64,000 bases of DNA from an uncultured Clostridia bacterium (GTDB taxonomy: Bacteria; Bacillota; Clostridia; Christensenellales; Borkfalkiaceae), in contig CALVHL010000001.1 in NCBI GenBank assembly GCA_944327625.1, positions 124,001 to 188,000 on the forward strand. The letters run 5' to 3'. The notes beneath the pieces are model-generated. The model saw nothing but the letters and a program-made list of their open reading frames with translations, was not told the origin of the DNA and ran no database searches. Below are positions 16,993-26,407 of the stretch, piece by piece. A program made the position numbers and the translations under genes. Each line of letters starts with the position of its first letter. Within the stretch, counting starts at the first letter, position 1.

Positions 16993-19900
16993 ATGAAAGC
17001 ATTTAAAAAGTTAAGTACAATACTTCTTTCGGTCGGCATTGCGCTAGTCATTGCGGCGACCGTAGTCGTAAATACGCTTACGCTCGGCAAGTTCGACAAT
17101 GTGCTCGAACAGTATTTCGGCAAGACCGATGACAGCACCCGCGGCGACACGATGGGTGCGGACGTAGAGTACTACAAGAGTTCGTTCGACAGCGCGAAAG
17201 AGCTCTATGAATATGAAGAACAGGTCTGCGCGGAAATAGCGCAGGAGGGCATAACCCTGCTTAAAAACGACGACAATGCGCTTCCGCTTGCAAAGGGCAC
17301 CAAGCTCAGCCTTTTCAGCCATTCTTCGGTCGACCTCGTCAGCGGCGGTTCCGGCTCGGGTTCGGGCAGCTTCGAGCTTACCAAGAACCTCAAAGAGGGG
17401 CTTGAACACGCAGGGCTTTCGGTAAACGAAAAGCTGTGGAATTTCTATTCGACGGGTGCCGGCTCGGGTGAAAAATATACGAGGGGCGTCGGTTCCGTCG
17501 ATTACGGCAGAGATCTCGACTGGAACCTCAACGAAGTTCCCCTTTCGGTAATAACCGCCGACAAGGAGCTCGTTTCCAGCTTTGACGGTACGGTTGCAAT
17601 GTTCGTAATGTCCCGCACGGGCGGCGAAGGCGCGGACGAGGCGAGGGATATGGCGGCTTTCGGCGGCAAGTCGGGACAGCACTATCTCGAACCGAGCGAT
17701 GAAGAACTTGAAATTTTGTCCTACCTCAACGAAAACTTCGATAAGGTCATACTGCTCGTCAACTGCAACAACGCAATGGAGCTCGGCTGGGTAAAGAACT
17801 ATTCCAACATCAAAGCCGTTCTCAATATGCCCGGCGCGGGCAGAACGGGCGTCTACGGCCTCGGCAATGTCATAACGGGACAGGACGAGGACGGCAACCG
17901 CATTTCCCCGTCGGGACACCTCGTAGACACCTTTGTCTATGACAATTTCTCCTCTCCCGCAATGCAGAATATGGGCGACTATAACTATGCGGGCACCGAT
18001 TACTATTACGTCAACTATGCCGAGGGCATCTACGTCGGCTATAAGTACTATGAAACCCGCTATGAGGACTATGTCCGCTCGCAGGGCAACGCAGGCAACT
18101 ATATCTATGACCAGACCGTGCTCTATCCTTTCGGCTACGGCCTCAGCTATACGACTTTCGGGTGGAGCGATTACAGCGTGTCTGCCGCCGACGCCGACGG
18201 CAATATAACCGTCAGCCTCAAAGTCACCAACACGGGCGACTATCCCGGCAAGGAAGTAGTGCAGGTATACGTACAGTCGCCCTATACGCTCGGCGGCATT
18301 GAAAAGGCTTCCGTTTCGCTCGTAGGCTTTGCCAAGACCGACCTCATTCAGCCCGACGGTCAGCCTCACGACGTCAGCGTGACGATAAACATCTCCGATT
18401 TCATCTCCTACGATTCAAAAAATGCCAAGACGTACGTGCTTGAAGCGGGCGACTATTACATAACCGCCGCATCCGACGCGCATAAGGCAATAAACAACGT
18501 GCTGGCAGCCCGCGCAGCCGACGGCGATGACAAGGTCGACCTCGACAAGATGTCGGGCACTGGCGACGCAAGCTTCACGGGCAAATATTCGCAGGGCGCG
18601 ACCGATACCGAAACTTATTCGGTAACCGCAACGGGCGAGGGCGAAATAACCAACCAGTTCGACGGTTCGTCGCTCACCGACGGCAAATATCTCTCGCGTT
18701 CGGATTGGAGCGTGATGGAAAATAACGGACTTCGCTACGGTTCGGCTTCATCGGCAGAGAGCAGGGCGGAGATAGGCGGAAAACAGTTCTCTCATTCCAT
18801 CACAGCAGAACTTAAAGCCGCGCTGGACTCCACTTCCTCGGGCAATCCCGACGAGGGCAAGGTGGTTGAAGAATACACCTTCGGTCAGGACAATGGGGTT
18901 GACCTCATCGACCTCCGCGGTCTTGACTATGACGATCCTCTCTGGGACGATCTCCTCGACGAAATAGAGCTTGACGAGCTTGCCAAACTCGTTGCCGAGT
19001 GCGGCTATTGCTCTCCTGCGGTGCAGTCCATAAACAAACCCAAGGTAACCGACCTCGACGGTCCCGCGGGGCTAAATAAAGTAGTGGGACACGGCTCTGT
19101 CGAGCTGGGCGACGACTATCTGTCGATGACTTGGCCCACCGAATATATGCTTGCCTGCACCTGGGATACCGACTACGCGTTCGCCATGGGCGAGGGCATA
19201 GGCGAAGACGGCCTCTATGGCGGTGTTCAGGGTTGGTACGGACCTGCCGTCAACATTCACAGAACGCCTTTCGCAGGCCGTAACTTCGAGTATTATTCCG
19301 AGGACAGCTTCATAAGCGGCGTCATGGGCAAGGCGGCAATAAACGGCGCAGCTACAAAGGGAATGTACGCATTCCTCAAACACTTCGCGCTCAACGACCA
19401 GGAAACCCACCGCGATCACCTCGGTCTCGTTACCTGGGCGGAAGAACAGGCAATAAGGGAAATCTATCTCAAACCCTTTGAAATGTGCATAGAGGACAAC
19501 GAAGTTGAAATCATGTACAATCAGGCCGTAAAGGATGAAGACGGCAATATAGAGAGCTTTGAGAAGAAATATACGACCGTACCCGCGGCGACGGCGGTAA
19601 TGACTTCGTTCAACCGCATCGGAGCAACGTGGGCGGGCGGCAACTACCACCTCATAACGGGCGTACTCCGCAACGAGTGGGGCTTCAACGGCTTTGCGCT
19701 CACCGACTATGAAGTGCTCAGCTATATGGGCACCGACCAGACGATTGCCGCAGGCGGCGACGGCAAGCTTACGACCGTCGAATGGACGGGCTACACGCTC
19801 GAAGGCAGACCTGAATATCAGGCTTACGCCCGCGAATCGGCTCATCACATTCTTTATACGGTAGTTCATTCTTCGGGCATGAACGGCTATGTACACGGCA

Positions 19901-20040
19901 TACAGTACGTTCCCGGATTTGCATACTACAAGATGATGGTAATAGGCTTCGACGTTCTGGCAGCGGCAGGTCTTGCCGTACTCGGCTTCTTCCTCTACAG
20001 AAATATCAAAAAATATTCTGTATCCGAGACGGCTGAATAA
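16993..20040 (+). CDS. GH3 beta-glucosidase, reversed domain order, membrane-anchored at both ends
   Basis: 1015 aa. Membrane helix at about 8-30, then a GH3 C-terminal-type alpha/beta sandwich (LLKNDDNALPLAKG near 90), a fibronectin-III-like domain (KEVVQVYVQSP near 415), and only then the GH3 N-terminal barrel. The barrel carries DLDGPAGLN near 687, HRTPFAGRNFEYYSED near 755, KHFALNDQETHRD near 795, and the nucleophile Asp905 in GFALTDYE. A second membrane helix lies at about 979-1003. The sandwich-before-barrel order is known in some rumen clostridial GH3 enzymes. It probably releases glucose from the oligosaccharides made by the two GH16 enzymes at the cell surface. Confidence 0.9.
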   Translation: MKAFKKLSTILLSVGIALVIAATVVVNTLTLGKFDNVLEQYFGKTDDSTRGDTMGADVEYYKSSFDSAKELYEYEEQVCAEIAQEGITLLKNDDNALPLAKGTKLSLFSHSSVDLVSGGSGSGSGSFELTKNLKEGLEHAGLSVNEKLWNFYSTGAGSGEKYTRGVGSVDYGRDLDWNLNEVPLSVITADKELVSSFDGTVAMFVMSRTGGEGADEARDMAAFGGKSGQHYLEPSDEELEILSYLNENFDKVILLVNCNNAMELGWVKNYSNIKAVLNMPGAGRTGVYGLGNVITGQDEDGNRISPSGHLVDTFVYDNFSSPAMQNMGDYNYAGTDYYYVNYAEGIYVGYKYYETRYEDYVRSQGNAGNYIYDQTVLYPFGYGLSYTTFGWSDYSVSAADADGNITVSLKVTNTGDYPGKEVVQVYVQSPYTLGGIEKASVSLVGFAKTDLIQPDGQPHDVSVTINISDFISYDSKNAKTYVLEAGDYYITAASDAHKAINNVLAARAADGDDKVDLDKMSGTGDASFTGKYSQGATDTETYSVTATGEGEITNQFDGSSLTDGKYLSRSDWSVMENNGLRYGSASSAESRAEIGGKQFSHSITAELKAALDSTSSGNPDEGKVVEEYTFGQDNGVDLIDLRGLDYDDPLWDDLLDEIELDELAKLVAECGYCSPAVQSINKPKVTDLDGPAGLNKVVGHGSVELGDDYLSMTWPTEYMLACTWDTDYAFAMGEGIGEDGLYGGVQGWYGPAVNIHRTPFAGRNFEYYSEDSFISGVMGKAAINGAATKGMYAFLKHFALNDQETHRDHLGLVTWAEEQAIREIYLKPFEMCIEDNEVEIMYNQAVKDEDGNIESFEKKYTTVPAATAVMTSFNRIGATWAGGNYHLITGVLRNEWGFNGFALTDYEVLSYMGTDQTIAAGGDGKLTTVEWTGYTLEGRPEYQAYARESAHHILYTVVHSSGMNGYVHGIQYVPGFAYYKMMVIGFDVLAAAGLAVLGFFLYRNIKKYSVSETAE

Positions 20041-20123: not shown

Positions 20124-20171
20124 AAACTGAAATAGTCGGCGGCAGACCTTTTGCCACCCTCGGAGTTTACT

Positions 20172-20921
20172 ATGATAGATTTTCACACCCACATTTTACC
20201 CGCAATAGACGACGGCAGCCGCGACGAGAGCGAATCGTGCGAGCTTCTTTCCCGCCTTGAAAGGCAGGGGGTTGACACCGTGCTGCTGACGCCGCACTAC
20301 TACGGCAGAGATTACAGCGTTCCCAAATTCCTTGAACGCAGGGAGAAGGCCTTTTCCGCGCTTGAAAGCGCATATACGGGCAATATCAGGCTAATCAAAG
20401 CTTGCGAATACAATATTGCGACCGACGTCAATTCCGACTTCATGTCGCTCGTTCCGCTCGCTATCGGGAATACCTCGTATATTCTCACCGAGCTGTCGTT
20501 TGAAAGCGAATGGGGGGACAGGCTGTTCAAGCGCATTAACTCGCTTCAGCTCTGCGGGCTTACGCCCGTCATCGCCCATGCCGAGCTCTATCCCGCCGTA
20601 AGGAAAAACCCGTCGCTCGTCGCGCGGCTCATCGACGGCGGCTGTTATATCCAGATAAACTGCGGTTCGGTAATCTCCTCCGATCCGCTCGTTGCCGCCC
20701 TGATAAACGGTATGCAGGTGCATTGTCTCGGCTCCGATACGCACAACACGACCAAGCGCCCGCCCGAATACGGCAGGGCGATTGAGATGCTTTCCGCCTC
20801 TTTCGGAAGTCAGACGGCAGAGGGGCTCAACGATAATATGAACCTCATCTTGCAGGGCAAGCCGCTTTCCGCAAGGCGCGGCGCGGCGGTAAAGAGAACG
20901 CTTTTCGGCAAATACAAATGA
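20172..20921 (+). CDS. cpsB: CpsB/YwqE-type protein-tyrosine phosphatase (PHP family)
   Basis: 249 aa, cytoplasmic. PHP-domain metallo-phosphatase with DFHTHILPAIDDGSRD at the N terminus (metal ligands), LLTPHYY near 39, CEYNI near 78, VIAHAELYP near 136 and GSDTHN near 195. Members dephosphorylate the tyrosine cluster of CpsD-type kinases and so control capsule or exopolysaccharide chain assembly. The kinase and its membrane partner are encoded head-on downstream. Start at 20172 has GGAG 6 nt upstream; a TTG at 20151 is in frame but lacks support. Confidence 0.92.
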   Translation: MIDFHTHILPAIDDGSRDESESCELLSRLERQGVDTVLLTPHYYGRDYSVPKFLERREKAFSALESAYTGNIRLIKACEYNIATDVNSDFMSLVPLAIGNTSYILTELSFESEWGDRLFKRINSLQLCGLTPVIAHAELYPAVRKNPSLVARLIDGGCYIQINCGSVISSDPLVAALINGMQVHCLGSDTHNTTKRPPEYGRAIEMLSASFGSQTAEGLNDNMNLILQGKPLSARRGAAVKRTLFGKYK

Positions 20922-20931
20922 GATAACATAT

Positions 20932-20971
20932 AAAAAAACAGAGCGGACCGACAAATCGATCCGCTCAAATT
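20932..20971. terminator. Bidirectional terminator between cpsB and cpsD
   Basis: Stem 20941-20951 with 20956-20966 (one mismatch), loop CAAA. T-rich run on the right for the plus strand; A-run on the left for the minus strand. Confidence 0.8.
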
Positions 20972-20972
20972 T

Positions 20973-21686
20973 TTAAGAATTTTTATCGCTGTAACTGTAA
21001 CCGTATTTATATTTCTCGCTCCGCATGAGCGTCGCTCCGTTCCAGACGAAGCCGAGGAAGCGACAGTCGGAAAATTCAATCTGCGCCAGCACCTTCTTGA
21101 TGAGCTTGTGGTTTGTAATGTATTTTCTCGTCACAAGCACTATGCCGTCGGTGTTCTTGGCTATTATCACCGCATCCGAAACGACGTTTGCGGGCGGCGT
21201 GTCGATTATGATATATTCGTACTGCTCCGAAAGCTTTTTGATTAGTATATCGAATACTTCGTTGTGCAGAAGCGTTGTGGGGTTAGGCGCTGAACGTGAG
21301 CAGGGGAGTATGTCAAGGTTTTCAAAAGCTCCCTTGATTACAGCATCTTCAAGGTTGCACTGGCCGCTGAGATAAGAGATAATGCAGTTCTTTGCGCGGA
21401 GGTGGAAAATGCTGCTTATTCTCGGCTTTCTCATGTCGCAGTCGACGAGAATAGTGCGGTAACCCGACCGCGCATAGGTGAGCGCGAGGTTGGCGGAAAC
21501 CGTACTCTTGCCCTCGCCGGGTACGCAGGAACTGACGCATATAACCTTACCGCATCCCGTCTTTTTGGGAACGGCGAAGCTGACGTTGTTCATGAGGTTG
21601 CGGAAGGCTTCGGTTATGACGAAGGGGGTATCGTCGTCTACCAGATATTCTGCATAGGAGATGCGTTCCTTATTTCTGAGCGTCAT
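20973..21686 (-). CDS. cpsD: CpsD/CapB-type bacterial tyrosine kinase
   Basis: 237 aa, cytoplasmic BY-kinase. Walker A SCVPGEGKSTV near residue 52, Walker A' ILVDCDMRKP near 80, Walker B YIIIDTPPA near 160, and a C-terminal tyrosine cluster KYKYGYSY that would be autophosphorylated. Works with the membrane co-polymerase encoded immediately upstream (1-nt gap) to regulate capsule/EPS chain length, and is opposed by the CpsB phosphatase on the other strand. Confidence 0.93.
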   Translation of the reverse strand: MTLRNKERISYAEYLVDDDTPFVITEAFRNLMNNVSFAVPKKTGCGKVICVSSCVPGEGKSTVSANLALTYARSGYRTILVDCDMRKPRISSIFHLRAKNCIISYLSGQCNLEDAVIKGAFENLDILPCSRSAPNPTTLLHNEVFDILIKKLSEQYEYIIIDTPPANVVSDAVIIAKNTDGIVLVTRKYITNHKLIKKVLAQIEFSDCRFLGFVWNGATLMRSEKYKYGYSYSDKNS

Positions 21687-21687
21687 T

Positions 21688-22473
21688 TCAGTTGCCCTCC
21701 TTAGAAGAACTCTTATAATCCTTTTTCATGAGCTGCTTGTCGTTGAAGTCGGGTATAGCGCCGAGTATTGAGGCGTTATACGTCTCCGCAAGCTCGTTTT
21801 CGTCCTTCACGCGGGAGTCGACGACATAGACAACGCCGAGAACGATCGCGGAGACGAGCGCAAGCCCTATTCCGCCGAGCAATGCGAATATCGTCGCACG
21901 GGAATTTATCTCTACGTCGTCATAGAAAATGTCGTTGGCAAGCGAGAAAGTCAGCGACTCGTCGCTGGCAAGCTCATAGTGCGACTTGATATAGTCTGGG
22001 AAGATCTTTACGACCGACTGCATAATGTGGTACGAAAGGTCTGTCGAACGAGTTTCGACGGTGAGATAAATGAAGTTGCCCGCAGACGAGGAGGAAGAAA
22101 TTTCCACGCTAAGCGCGTCCTCTACCGTCTCGAAGGAGAAGTCCTGCGGCAAATCGTATTCGTCGGAAGCCTGCATATCGTCGGCAACCGCCCTGTAAAA
22201 GCGACTCTGCGTCGCCATGAGCTTACAGCCCGAAAGCAGGCTGTAAACGCCCGACTGGCTCTGCGACTGCTGTCCGAAATCGGTCGTCGTGCGATAGTAG
22301 AGAATGTACGTCGAACTGTATGTGTAGGTCACCGACGACTTGCCGATGAGATAGCCTGAAACGCCGCCGACGACGAGGCAGATGAGTATTATCCACCAAC
22401 ATTTGAGAAGATAAAGACAAATCTTGCCTATGTCTATTTCTACGTCGTCCGTATTCTGTGTCTTTTCGTTCAT
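21688..22473 (-). CDS. cpsC: CpsC/Wzz-type capsule chain-length co-polymerase
   Basis: 261 aa membrane protein. Two helices: about 24-45 (WWIILICLVVGGVSGYLIG) and about 195-215 (ALLGGIGLALVSAIVLG), with an extracellular domain between them and a short cytosolic C-terminal tail, the topology of CpsC/YveK adaptor proteins that activate a separate BY-kinase. DVEIDIGKICLYLLK is the usual N-terminal amphipathic start. RBS AGGAG about 8 nt upstream. First gene of the leftward cpsC-cpsD unit. The biosynthetic glycosyltransferases are not in this window. Confidence 0.9.
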   Translation of the reverse strand: MNEKTQNTDDVEIDIGKICLYLLKCWWIILICLVVGGVSGYLIGKSSVTYTYSSTYILYYRTTTDFGQQSQSQSGVYSLLSGCKLMATQSRFYRAVADDMQASDEYDLPQDFSFETVEDALSVEISSSSSAGNFIYLTVETRSTDLSYHIMQSVVKIFPDYIKSHYELASDESLTFSLANDIFYDDVEINSRATIFALLGGIGLALVSAIVLGVVYVVDSRVKDENELAETYNASILGAIPDFNDKQLMKKDYKSSSKEGN

Positions 22474-22630: not shown

Positions 22631-22768
22631 TTATATTGCAGATCATTCGACATATTGCGACTTGCTCTCAAAATGTTGTAATTATTCGCTCAATTTGTTA
22701 TCATATTGTGTGTAAGTTATCATAACGGCGCGTTAAGCTTAAAAATCGGCAAAATAATTTTAAGCCTG

Positions 22769-22799
22769 CCAATAAAACGCGCTGATGAAATCGTTTAAT
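22769..22799 (+). promoter_or_regulatory. Putative alternative-sigma promoter, copy 1 (sigma gene)
   Basis: CCAATAAAA (22769-22777) and CGTTTAAT (22792-22799), 14 nt apart. The same two boxes recur 13 nt apart upstream of the lipoprotein gene at 24730-24759 and not elsewhere in the window. This fits auto-regulation by the sigma factor. The second box ends 16 nt before the sigma start, leaving a very short leader. Confidence 0.6.
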
Positions 22800-22815
22800 A
22801 AGCGAGGATGAGAAG

Positions 22816-23331
22816 ATGGAAAAGTCAGAGCTCGACAAGTTAATGTCGCGTGTTGCCGAGGGAGATAATCAGGCCTTCGGCGAGCTTTACCGCGCGACTG
22901 CCAAAGGCGTCTATGCCTTTGCCTATTCCTATCTCAACAATTCCTCAGACGCCGAAGACGTAATGCAGTCGGCTTTTCTGCAAATCAAGCGCAAGGCTTA
23001 CACCTATAAAAAGGGCAGCAATGCGCGCGCGTGGATATTGCAGATCGTCAAAAATCTTGCGCTGGACGAACTCCGCAAGCGCAAAAGACGACGGCAGACC
23101 AACTATCCGCCCGACGAGCGCGACGCGGTTATTTCCCCGACCGAGCCGTCGGCGCTCGACTATATGATGAAATGCCTGACCGACGAGGAAAGGGAAGTTG
23201 TCATTCTGCACGTAGTATGGGGATACAAGCACAGGGAAATAGCCGAAAAGCTGGAAATCCCAGTAGGCACCGTGACCTGGCGGTATAATCAGGCGATTAA
23301 GAAATTAGAAAAATTCAAGGAGGGAGTATGA
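22816..23331 (+). CDS. ECF-type RNA polymerase sigma factor
   Basis: 171 aa. Sigma-70 region 2 at about residues 20-90 (FGELYRATAKGVYAFAYSYL, DAEDVMQSAFLQIKRK, ARAWILQIVKNLALDELRKRKR) and region 4 at about 115-165 (LTDEEREVVILHVVWGYKHREIAEKL, then PVGTVTWRYNQAIKKLEKF). No region 1 or 3, as in extracytoplasmic-function sigma factors. Its stop overlaps the anti-sigma start by 4 nt (ATGA), which ensures coupled, near-equal synthesis. GAGGATGAGAAG precedes the ATG. Probably auto-regulated from the motif just upstream. Confidence 0.93.
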   Translation: MEKSELDKLMSRVAEGDNQAFGELYRATAKGVYAFAYSYLNNSSDAEDVMQSAFLQIKRKAYTYKKGSNARAWILQIVKNLALDELRKRKRRRQTNYPPDERDAVISPTEPSALDYMMKCLTDEEREVVILHVVWGYKHREIAEKLEIPVGTVTWRYNQAIKKLEKFKEGV

Positions 23332-24617
23332 AAGATAAAGACTTTTTCAATCAGTTGGATAAAGAGCTTGACAGGCTTGTGCCGCCGATGTCGGAAAAGC
23401 TCGCGTCAGAGCCTATAATCACGCGCGATCCCTCCGAGACAGGCGAAGAACAGACCTCAAAGCGGGTTCGCCGCCCTCAAAGGCGCGGGCTGTTCGCGTT
23501 TGTCGGCGTAGCCGCTGCGGCTGCGCTGACCATGGCGGCGGTATTGCCGTTCGCGCTCTCTCCGTCAGACAGTTCACAATATATAGTAATGCGCACGGAT
23601 ATAAACCCGTCGGTGTCGCTGCTTCTCGACTCTGACTATATCGTCAGGGGAGTGATGAGCAATAACGACGACGGCGACGCGCTTCTTTCAGACGAGCAGT
23701 TCACGAGCTCGCTCGAGGGCAAGAGCGCACAGCAGGCGGCCGTGCTCATCTCCGAACGCGCGGCAAAATCTGGCTTTATCGACGTAGCTAACCGCGGCTC
23801 GGGCGAGGACTATAACCGCATAAACGTGTCGCTGACAGCCGACGGCAAGACCGACGGGAATATGGCGGACGAGATTGCGGCAGGGCTTACAAACTACTTC
23901 AACGGCATAGGCGTGTACGTCCTTGTTGACTGTACCGAGACGGTTGAGGTCGGCATAGATCTCTCGTCGGCATTCGACGAAAATACGCTCGTCTATCAGC
24001 GGCTTGACGCGGACGAGATGGAGGAATACGCCGCGCAGGCGGTCTATTCGTTCGCGCAGGAGCTTCTCGGCGACGCGCTTGAAAGATACGACCTCTATGA
24101 GCACATATATGCCCTCAACGAACAGATTGCAGATCTCAACGGCGGGCGCGACTATTGGGATATAACCCCTGGCAGCGGCGAAAACGCCCTGCTCTGCGCA
24201 GAGATGGCGGATAAACTTGCAAAGATGAGCGTACTATACGATGCCGACTATTCTTCCCGCGCGGAATTTTTAATAGATTACGGCGCGTATATGACGGGCA
24301 TATTGCTCGTCGATGTGGACGCATTGAAGCTCCTCTATGACGACGGCATAGACGGGGAAAACTTCAGCGGCATAGAGAATTTCGACACCCGCCTCAACTA
24401 CTATAACTTCATCGGCAACAACGTGCTTAAAACGGTCATCGAGGAGCTGTTCAGTGGCAGCACCGACACGCTCGACGAACTTATCGACAGCGCCGTGCGC
24501 CTTACCGAGATGAGGATTGAGGCAAGGCTGGAACGCTTCACTTCGCTGTTTGAGCTTGAAAGAAAGCCCATAACCGAGGACGACTATGCCGAATTCATTG
24601 CAAGGATAGACGCATAA
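23328..24617 (+). CDS. Membrane anti-sigma factor with RsgI-like extracellular module
   Basis: 429 aa. A cytosolic part (1-52, basic near the membrane) is followed by one helix (about 54-77) and a large extracellular part. Just outside the membrane is TDINPSVSLLLDSD...NNDDGDALL. This is the conserved DxNPSxxLxLD...NxDG pattern of RsgI-family anti-sigma-I factors, with the Asn93-Pro94 bond that is autocleaved in characterised RsgI proteins (established for the family, not shown here). The remaining roughly 230 residues are alpha-rich and not recognised. It should hold the ECF factor inactive until an outside signal triggers proteolysis. Pairing an RsgI-type sensor with an ECF rather than SigI factor is worth noting. 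Confidence 0.85.
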   Translation: MKDKDFFNQLDKELDRLVPPMSEKLASEPIITRDPSETGEEQTSKRVRRPQRRGLFAFVGVAAAAALTMAAVLPFALSPSDSSQYIVMRTDINPSVSLLLDSDYIVRGVMSNNDDGDALLSDEQFTSSLEGKSAQQAAVLISERAAKSGFIDVANRGSGEDYNRINVSLTADGKTDGNMADEIAAGLTNYFNGIGVYVLVDCTETVEVGIDLSSAFDENTLVYQRLDADEMEEYAAQAVYSFAQELLGDALERYDLYEHIYALNEQIADLNGGRDYWDITPGSGENALLCAEMADKLAKMSVLYDADYSSRAEFLIDYGAYMTGILLVDVDALKLLYDDGIDGENFSGIENFDTRLNYYNFIGNNVLKTVIEELFSGSTDTLDELIDSAVRLTEMRIEARLERFTSLFELERKPITEDDYAEFIARIDA

Positions 24618-24659
24618 GAAATTCTTTAAATAAACCATATATGACATATATGATTATTC

Positions 24660-24691
24660 GGGTGCGGGCGCGTTGCGCGGCGCACCCTTTT
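24660..24691 (+). terminator. Terminator after the sigma/anti-sigma operon
   Basis: GGGTGCG (24660-24666) pairs with CGCACCC (24681-24687), with inner GCGC/GCGC, followed by TTTTACTTT. Confidence 0.75.
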
Positions 24692-24729
24692 ACTTTCCTT
24701 AAAAAAAATTTAAAAAATTTGCGCGATTG

Positions 24730-24759
24730 CCAATAAAAGGCGCAGGCAATTCGTTTAAT
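24730..24759 (+). promoter_or_regulatory. Putative alternative-sigma promoter, copy 2 (lipoprotein gene)
   Basis: CCAATAAAA (24730-24738) and CGTTTAAT (24752-24759) repeat the boxes found before the sigma gene, 13 nt apart here against 14 there; the GCGC after the first box is also shared. It lies 78 nt before the lipoprotein start. Confidence 0.6.
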
Positions 24760-24771
24760 GAGTGAAAGCGA

Positions 24772-24803
24772 AAGACGGAAGGCAGTAAAAATGTGCCCGT
24801 CTT
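24772..24803 (+). other. Leader hairpin of lipoprotein mRNA
   Basis: AAGACGG (24772-24778) pairs with CCGTCTT (24797-24803) in the predicted 5' leader. No T-run; possible stability or translation element. Confidence 0.4.
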
Positions 24804-24837
24804 GGCGCAGAAAAAAATTGACCGCGAGGTAAAAATT

Positions 24838-26325
24838 ATGAAAAAGAGATTTATGGCATTGACGGCGGCCGTTCTGTCGCTGAGTATGATAGCGGGCACG
24901 GCTGCGGGTTGTTCCAAGAACAGCGGAAGTGACGCAGTATCGTATATGTCGGTAGACATTAACCCTTCTGTGTCCTTTACGCTCGACAAACATGACAAGG
25001 TCCTGTCGGTAATCGCCGACAACGAGGACGGTCAGGTAGTGGTCTACGGCGAGGAATTCGTCGGACTGAGCGCGGAGGAAGCCCTCGACAAGCTTGCGGA
25101 GCTGTCGGTTAAACTCGGCTACCTCAACGAGGCAAACGTCGGCGTCAGCGTGACGGTTGCTGGCAAGGCGGACGATGAGGAGATAATCGCCGCGGCAAAG
25201 CGTTCGTTTGAAGCCAACGCGGGCGACCTCGATATAAACGTCTCCGACGGCGCTACGTTCGAGCTTCAGAGGGAGCTCAAAGCCGCAAAGGCCGTCTACG
25301 GCGCAGACGCCAACGTGCAGGGGCTCGACCTCGTAAAGTTCAGGCTGATAACCGAAGCGCAGATGGTTGACAATACGCTCACCGTAAGCGCGGCGGCAGA
25401 ACTCGACGCAAGCGAACTCATAGCGATAATCGAACAGGGCGCGAAGAAGATAGAGCCCTACGCGACGGCGGCTTACAACACGGCGGTTGCGGCGGCGCAG
25501 AGGGTTTACGGCGACCTCAAAGGTCAGCTCGTCGACACCATCTGGACGATCCCCTACACCAACGACATCGTCAACATAGTGACGGGCAACAGAAAGTATG
25601 ACGTCAACTACGGCGTAATATACAACCTCTATACGTCGTCCTCGCGCGTACTCGGCGCAGGGCTTGACGCGGCGGAAGTTGCGGCTCAGCTCGCCGAAGA
25701 GACGGCGGTTGCCGAGAGTGTGCTCGACGCGATAGAGCTTACGCTCCCCGAAGCCGATAGACAGGCGTTTGCCGACGGCGCAGACGGTAACAGCGACGGC
25801 AAGGTTACGGTTGCCGAGCTCGACGACTACTTCAACATATACTTCAAGAATATGACCGAAGAACAGCGTCAGGCGGCGGAGCAGCTTTTAAACGACGTAA
25901 TGGACGAAGTTCAGACGGTTGCAACGGAGATTGACGCAAGCATAGCCGACGAATACAAGGCGGCGCTCAATAAGCTCGGCGAAGACATAGTCAACCTCAT
26001 ACCCGACAGCATAGTTTCGACGGTAAACGAGTATGTGACCGAATTCAAGGGTATAGCCGAAGATATAGCCGAGGCGGCAGAGGGCAAGGAGCCCATGGCG
26101 GCGGCGTATGCGGCGAAGCAGGCGATTGACAACCGCGCAGAAATGATAATGCAGACCATGCGCGAAGACCTCACCGAGGAAGATCTCGCCGACGTCGAGA
26201 GCAGAATAGAAAAACTCAACGCAACTTTAAAGGAAGCGGAAGATAAGCTCAACGAGGCTATCGAACAGGCAAAGGCACAGGCTGAAAAGTATCTTGCCGA
26301 CCTCAAAGCAGAACGCGAAGCCTGA
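24838..26325 (+). CDS. Secreted lipoprotein carrying an RsgI-like module and an EF-hand loop
   Basis: 495 aa. Signal peptide with lipobox TAAGC (lipid Cys25). Residues about 35-145 repeat the module of the anti-sigma factor, with VDINPSVSFTLDKHDKVL (Asn42-Pro43), NEDGQVV and then GLSAEEALDKLAELS. There is no cytosolic or sigma-binding part. A helical middle follows, then DGNSDGKVTVAE (316-327), an exact EF-hand calcium-loop pattern, and a long charged helical C terminus (about 390-495, coiled-coil-like). The ATG at 24838 has GAGGT 7 nt upstream. Its own promoter-like motif matches that of the sigma gene, so it is a likely regulon member: decoy, feedback element or accessory sensor (inference). 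Confidence 0.8.
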   Translation: MKKRFMALTAAVLSLSMIAGTAAGCSKNSGSDAVSYMSVDINPSVSFTLDKHDKVLSVIADNEDGQVVVYGEEFVGLSAEEALDKLAELSVKLGYLNEANVGVSVTVAGKADDEEIIAAAKRSFEANAGDLDINVSDGATFELQRELKAAKAVYGADANVQGLDLVKFRLITEAQMVDNTLTVSAAAELDASELIAIIEQGAKKIEPYATAAYNTAVAAAQRVYGDLKGQLVDTIWTIPYTNDIVNIVTGNRKYDVNYGVIYNLYTSSSRVLGAGLDAAEVAAQLAEETAVAESVLDAIELTLPEADRQAFADGADGNSDGKVTVAELDDYFNIYFKNMTEEQRQAAEQLLNDVMDEVQTVATEIDASIADEYKAALNKLGEDIVNLIPDSIVSTVNEYVTEFKGIAEDIAEAAEGKEPMAAAYAAKQAIDNRAEMIMQTMREDLTEEDLADVESRIEKLNATLKEAEDKLNEAIEQAKAQAEKYLADLKAEREA

Positions 26326-26375: not shown

Positions 26376-26407
26376 GGGGCGCGGGGCAACCCGCGCCCCC
26401 ATGTTTT
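26376..26407 (+). terminator. Terminator after lipoprotein gene
   Basis: Perfect 10-bp GC stem (26376-26385 with 26390-26399), loop GCAA, tail CATGTTTTT. Confidence 0.9.

Follow-up and report, generated by a model that had tools for sequence, protein, structure and literature searches.

Why should a lipoprotein that has nothing with which to signal inward carry the same sensor domain as a membrane anti-sigma factor encoded beside it? The question is raised by a locus of three genes, all on the + strand at positions 22816–26325 of a 64-kb window (the whole stretch of DNA analysed here, from contig CALVHL010000001.1 of an uncultured Clostridia bacterium of the Borkfalkiaceae; all coordinates are those of the window). 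The genes encode an extracytoplasmic function (ECF) sigma factor, an anti-sigma factor and a lipoprotein, and the latter two proteins share a SEAL domain (Pfam RsgI_M). In RsgI proteins the SEAL domain cuts itself and the halves stay together until release of the ectodomain exposes a membrane stub to a site-2 protease. The reading we favour, with somewhat less than even confidence, is that the three proteins form a single SEAL unit in which a sigma-induced lipoprotein tunes, and likely damps, release of the anti-sigma ectodomain.

The sigma factor consists of ECF-type regions 2 and 4 only and matches the NCBIfam model sigma70-ECF (TIGR02937) above cut-off. The start of the anti-sigma gene overlaps its stop by 4 nucleotides, giving the translational coupling expected of an ECF sigma factor and its membrane anti-sigma factor. 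The anti-sigma protein has a cytosolic part of ~55 residues, one membrane helix (56–76), the SEAL/RsgI_M domain (86–191) and a helical ectodomain. By its signal peptide, its lipobox cysteine and the signal peptidase II encoded in the genome (LspA, 3.7e-24), the third protein is a bacterial lipoprotein, its lipidation being predicted. The lipobox residue, Cys25, is followed by SEAL/RsgI_M (34–146, predicted scissile bond N42–P43) and a helical ectodomain (141–495). As the first-pass annotation of the locus had described, the lipoprotein combines the module with a lipid anchor: we recognised no cytosolic part in it and no membrane-spanning anchor besides the signal peptide, and it is thus incapable of inward signalling alone.

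That annotation had also assigned an RsgI-type module to both proteins, and significant similarity was found on the profile and the structure level alike. Both proteins score over the RsgI_M cut-off, all 16 relatives of the lipoprotein match the family, and the 1.83-Mb genome encodes no other RsgI_M protein. The two proteins match each other by BLASTP (E=3e-11, 37% identity over 99 residues) and in a profile–profile comparison (probability 99.3, E=1.3e-20). A profile of 16 lipoproteins matches, with residues 43–209, the solved periplasmic domains of Clostridium thermocellum RsgI proteins (8hep_B, E=1.4e-13; also 8her, 8heq, 8hdj and 8u9o), and the anti-sigma profile matches the same entries more weakly (8e-7). 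The deposited chain B of all five entries starts at the Pro equivalent to lipoprotein residue P43, as expected if these structures are of cleaved domains. AlphaFold2 (AF2) models (predicted local distance difference test scores of 84 for the lipoprotein and 81 for the anti-sigma factor) place the Asn-Pro at the turn that joins strands β1 and β2. In Foldseek searches, the best matches of the lipoprotein model were 8t9n, 8hdj, 8hep, 8heq, 8her and 8u9o, and that of the anti-sigma model was 8t9n; these RsgI matches have probabilities of 0.99–1.00 and modest E-values (2e-4 to 2e-2). The shared module is a SEAL self-cleavage domain, with cleavage itself predicted. For the helical part of the lipoprotein, neither profile nor Foldseek searches gave a confident PDB match, and apolipoprotein-like matches were rejected as low-complexity helix matches.

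The Asn-Pro pair is present in both window proteins, as first noted from the sequence, and in the anti-sigma factor it sits in DINPSVS. In the alignment of the lipoprotein with its 16 relatives, C25, D40, N42 and P43 are invariant. Among all modules collected, Asn-Pro is kept in 113/113 lipoproteins and 89/93 anti-sigma factors, counts for which four sequences were reassigned by hand from the lipoproteins to the anti-sigma factors and two partly overlapping locus sets were used. The four anti-sigma factors that have lost it all belong to genus g6 (L077, L078, L079 and L111), where a longer loop replaces the hairpin. Because the g6 lipoproteins, where seen (L077, L078 and L079), retain DINPSVEF, the self-cleaving part of the system is confined in this genus to the lipoprotein. 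Such an arrangement would suit a lipoprotein that is a positive component, catching a wall or ligand signal and, by release at its own SEAL domain, driving or permitting release of the anti-sigma ectodomain. We regard this as unlikely. The pattern comes from four genomes, the long g6 loop could instead be the target of an ordinary site-1 protease, and a sigma-induced activator would amount to positive feedback; a negative effect of the lipoprotein on anti-sigma release is more likely than a positive one. Genus g6 offers a ready natural experiment.

Common control of the lipoprotein gene and the sigma pair, suggested by the first-pass annotation, is supported by a promoter-like element that they have in common. 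The sequence TGCCAATAAAA-N13/14-CGTTTAAT occurs twice in the window, against 0 expected by chance, and has no other copy in the genome; one copy precedes the sigma/anti-sigma operon and the other the lipoprotein gene (Table 1). More generally, sigma and lipoprotein genes share a predicted ECF-like promoter motif, CAAYAAAA-N14/15-GTTTAAT. The CGTT at its −10 position is typical of ECF promoters. The AAC core at −35 likewise agrees with the description of such promoters (PMC6056542). In 101 genomes of the family, 19 of the 20 matches to CAAYAAAA-N14-GTTTAATA lie at sigma or lipoprotein loci, as against 1 of 16 matches with other spacer lengths, both tallies being made by hand. Over all collected loci, a slightly looser motif precedes 44/77 sigma and 49/99 lipoprotein genes, and it is found before both genes in 37 of the 66 distinct triads and before one or both in 48. 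The sigma factor may recognise its own promoter and that of the lipoprotein gene. The same motif precedes 0/80 anti-sigma genes and 3/585 other genes, which argues against mere co-location, that is, two SEAL proteins of unrelated pathways that have a promoter in common by ancestry.

Besides the sigma operon and the lipoprotein gene, we could recognise no regulon member in this genome. With up to two mismatches allowed, further sites showed no excess (14, versus 22 in a reversed control), and we therefore rejected a large regulon in which the lipoprotein is one target among many, although a looser promoter could hide some members. The distance from the −10 element to the ATG seems to be very short for the sigma gene, at ~17 nucleotides (22792–22816) versus a leader of ~80 nucleotides for the lipoprotein gene (24752–24838), a contrast that recurs in several relatives. 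In another genome, which has a triad of its own (L089), an unlinked SEAL lipoprotein gene (L090) is preceded by a similar element, CAACAAAA followed by TTGTATAATA at the usual distance, and is a possible second regulon member.

The triad is not peculiar to this genome. Homologues of the lipoprotein do adjoin sigma/anti-sigma pairs, as a survey of gene neighbourhoods yielded 66 distinct loci at which the full set is present, the majority from gut Clostridia that have not been cultured. Among named genomes, 55 loci were recovered, of which 38 are full triads, with nearly all again from uncultured gut Clostridia (for example, Candidatus Scatosoma), and triads are present in further families of the same order. 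RsgI_M occurs in 42 of the 101 family genomes: 31 have both a SEAL anti-sigma factor and a SEAL lipoprotein, 3 the anti-sigma factor only, 8 the lipoprotein only, and 59 neither (Fisher p=3e-15, only indicative for a table counted by hand over related genomes). In a class-wide sample, most matches are anti-sigma proteins without an adjoining lipoprotein, with exceptions that include L250 (and L207 within the order). At these two loci a SEAL lipoprotein adjoins an RsgI-looking anti-sigma factor, and no ECF sigma factor was found nearby; they are perhaps a second, independent pairing in the Clostridia. Three loci labelled Corallococcus or Candidatus Fimimonas (L142, L152 and L155; NCBI places the latter in Myxococcota) carry a clostridial-type triad, and their taxonomic labels look wrong.

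How old is the partnership? In a tree of 238 modules, the lipoprotein of the window groups with lipoproteins (a 15-row set; Shimodaira–Hasegawa-like approximate likelihood ratio test, SH-aLRT, 97) and its anti-sigma factor with anti-sigma factors (a 21-row set, SH-aLRT 98). Because the two module types are largely separate on the tree, the partnership is old. The first-pass annotation was right in giving the lipoprotein the same kind of module as the anti-sigma factor, but not in treating it as a duplicate if a recent copy is meant: the tree rules out recent duplication into the lipoprotein and points to old, paralogous lineages. Old and separate lineages, with dissimilar ectodomains after the SEAL domain, are also what co-location without a functional link would predict. 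Yet the association survives changes in gene order, with the lipoprotein gene first at L080, L085, L093, L103 and L104, and widely varying intergenic gaps, and together with the motif counts this makes such a link-free origin very improbable.

The chief rival to the inducible partner that we favour is that the lipoprotein is an output rather than a regulator. In that case, the sigma factor would sense envelope trouble by way of the SEAL anti-sigma factor paired with it and make a single product, a surface lipoprotein in which the SEAL domain is a breakaway anchor that allows the helical ectodomain to be shed when pulled. A sole recognisable target fits this picture, as do lipoproteins that never lose Asn-Pro and orphan SEAL lipoproteins in genomes without a SEAL anti-sigma factor. 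We nevertheless consider it to have perhaps one chance in three, for it leaves unexplained the strong co-occurrence of the two proteins and why a regulator's own sensor domain should sit on its single output in dozens of genera. Orphans of ~380–400 residues (L086, L088, L091, L094, L096, L097, L100, L106, L108 and L110) have no sigma or anti-sigma gene nearby and lack the strict promoter motif.

Several observations weigh against a dedicated three-part unit. Eight of the 42 RsgI_M-carrying genomes of the family possess only a lipoprotein of this orphan type and lack a SEAL anti-sigma factor, so one class of SEAL lipoproteins can occur in the absence of this partner; conversely, sigma/anti-sigma loci L107 and L109 lie in genomes in which no SEAL lipoprotein was found. 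The strict motif stands at neither gene in 18 of the 66 triads. Moreover, the motif was defined partly on the loci in which it was later counted, and P-values overstate independence because they were computed over related loci. Finally, the likeness of the anti-sigma factor to the lipoprotein is limited to approximately the first 170 extracytoplasmic residues, the ectodomains beyond SEAL being dissimilar, and any contact between the two ectodomains is putative.

With these points in mind, we still read the lipoprotein best as an inducible partner, because, apart from the sigma operon, it is the one target that we can recognise, and because it carries the regulator's own sensor fold. We propose that the ECF sigma factor is held by its single-pass anti-sigma factor, whose outer part opens with a SEAL domain that would cut itself and keep its halves associated. 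As in RsgI, pulling or pushing off the cleaved ectodomain would open the stub to a site-2 protease and free the sigma factor; the genome encodes such a protease (Peptidase_M50, 2.2e-63, at G000:C10), which by analogy would cut this anti-sigma factor. The freed sigma factor would transcribe its own operon and the lipoprotein gene. At the outer face, the lipoprotein could then share the ligand or load of the anti-sigma ectodomain, or bind that ectodomain, so that further release is damped or tuned. The first-pass annotation had suggested, as possible roles, rivalry for the signal or for the site-2 protease pathway, assembly with the anti-sigma ectodomain, and negative feedback. A more specific version of our proposal, which we think improbable, is feedback in which the two SEAL domains exchange strands. 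For example, β1 of the anti-sigma factor would stay on the membrane after self-cleavage, and the SEAL core of a lipoprotein that has parted from its own β1 could dock on this stub; alternatively, the lipid-anchored β1 of the lipoprotein could dock into the anti-sigma core. Either exchange would re-cap the stub and shield it from the site-2 protease. If true, control would be exerted by two proteins trading the halves of a domain that has cut itself.

Parts of this arrangement are known from other systems. In SigI–RsgI of Bacillus subtilis and C. thermocellum, self-cleavage of the SEAL or periplasmic domain is followed by RseP/RasP and then ClpXP (PMC12203970, PMC10202637). The window anti-sigma factor resembles RsgI in having one membrane helix directly followed by SEAL, with Asn-Pro in the β1–β2 turn, in a genome with a site-2 protease. 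It is not, however, a true RsgI, because its partner is an ECF sigma factor in place of SigI, which has no sigma-4 domain, and the N-terminal anti-SigI domain of RsgI is absent (no Pfam match at E-values up to 10 in this protein, and none in 19 relatives); a separate SEAL lipoprotein with the same promoter-like element is a further difference. A third extracytoplasmic protein beside sigma and anti-sigma factors recalls the RseA–RseB (MucA–MucB)/sigma-E systems of Gammaproteobacteria, where RseB protects RseA from cleavage by binding it (PMC10202637). Unlike our lipoprotein, RseB is soluble, periplasmic and of another fold, and site 1 of RseA is cut by DegS rather than by self-cleavage. CseA, of the Streptomyces sigE–cseABC operon, is similarly a lipoprotein whose gene accompanies that of an ECF sigma factor; it is not known to carry a SEAL domain. 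That system, in contrast to the present triad, has no anti-sigma factor, and CseA is thought to work with a sensor kinase. Loss of CseA raises sigE promoter activity (PMC6767563). RsgI9 of C. thermocellum is a SEAL protein with a self-cleaving domain and no paired sigma gene (PMC12203970), but it is membrane-spanning and has an intracellular part, and so differs from the lipoprotein. We found no description of a SEAL lipoprotein partner in the literature searched, a small part of the relevant papers and thus weak evidence.

The extent of the locus stands as first annotated, with one amendment: the true start of the lipoprotein is most likely ATG 24838, not GTG 24793, because with it the start and the Cys align with all relatives. 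The lipoprotein gene, 220 nucleotides downstream of the anti-sigma gene, probably forms its own transcript, since hairpin terminators are predicted both before and after it (Table 1).

Table 1. Predicted genes and signals of the three-gene SEAL locus, in window coordinates
Feature	Coordinates	Strand	Length	Details
Promoter-like element, sigma/anti-sigma operon	22767..22799	+		TGCCAATAAAA-N14-CGTTTAAT; one of two exact copies in window and genome
ECF sigma factor	22816..23331	+	171 aa	Pfam Sigma70_r2 1e-16, Sigma70_r4_2 2.6e-11
Anti-sigma factor	23328..24617	+	429 aa	Pfam RsgI_M 7.4e-11; AF2 model; Foldseek
Probable intrinsic terminator after anti-sigma gene	24660..24691	+		Hairpin then TTTTACTTT; RNA fold -20.8 kcal/mol, z -3.0
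Promoter-like element, lipoprotein gene	24728..24759	+		TGCCAATAAAA-N13-CGTTTAAT; other of the two genome copies
SEAL lipoprotein	24838..26325	+	495 aa	Pfam RsgI_M 9.2e-20
Intrinsic terminator after lipoprotein gene	26376..26407	+		10 G-C pairs then TTTTT; z -5.4

Directly upstream of the sigma operon (20151–22473) lie capsule regulation genes encoding a CpsB phosphatase, a CpsD-like kinase and Wzz, the latter two divergent. A wider conserved neighbourhood that takes in such genes was rejected, as gene sizes and order around other triads do not show it. Farther upstream (16993–20040) is a gene for a glycosyl hydrolase family 3 protein with reversed domain order, the C-terminal domain ahead of the N-terminal one, and a hydrophobic stretch at either end.

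SEAL domains are believed to relay mechanical or ligand signals across Gram-positive membranes and have been discussed in anti-sigma factors. The conserved triad, a putative stress-signalling switch, suggests an undescribed three-part form of this known bacterial signalling pathway, composed of a regulator, its inhibitor and a surface protein. In dozens of gut Clostridia, SEAL lipoproteins that by themselves have no means of inward signalling are apparently under the same sigma factor, and they provide a direct route to asking what determines the threshold at which a SEAL sensor is released.

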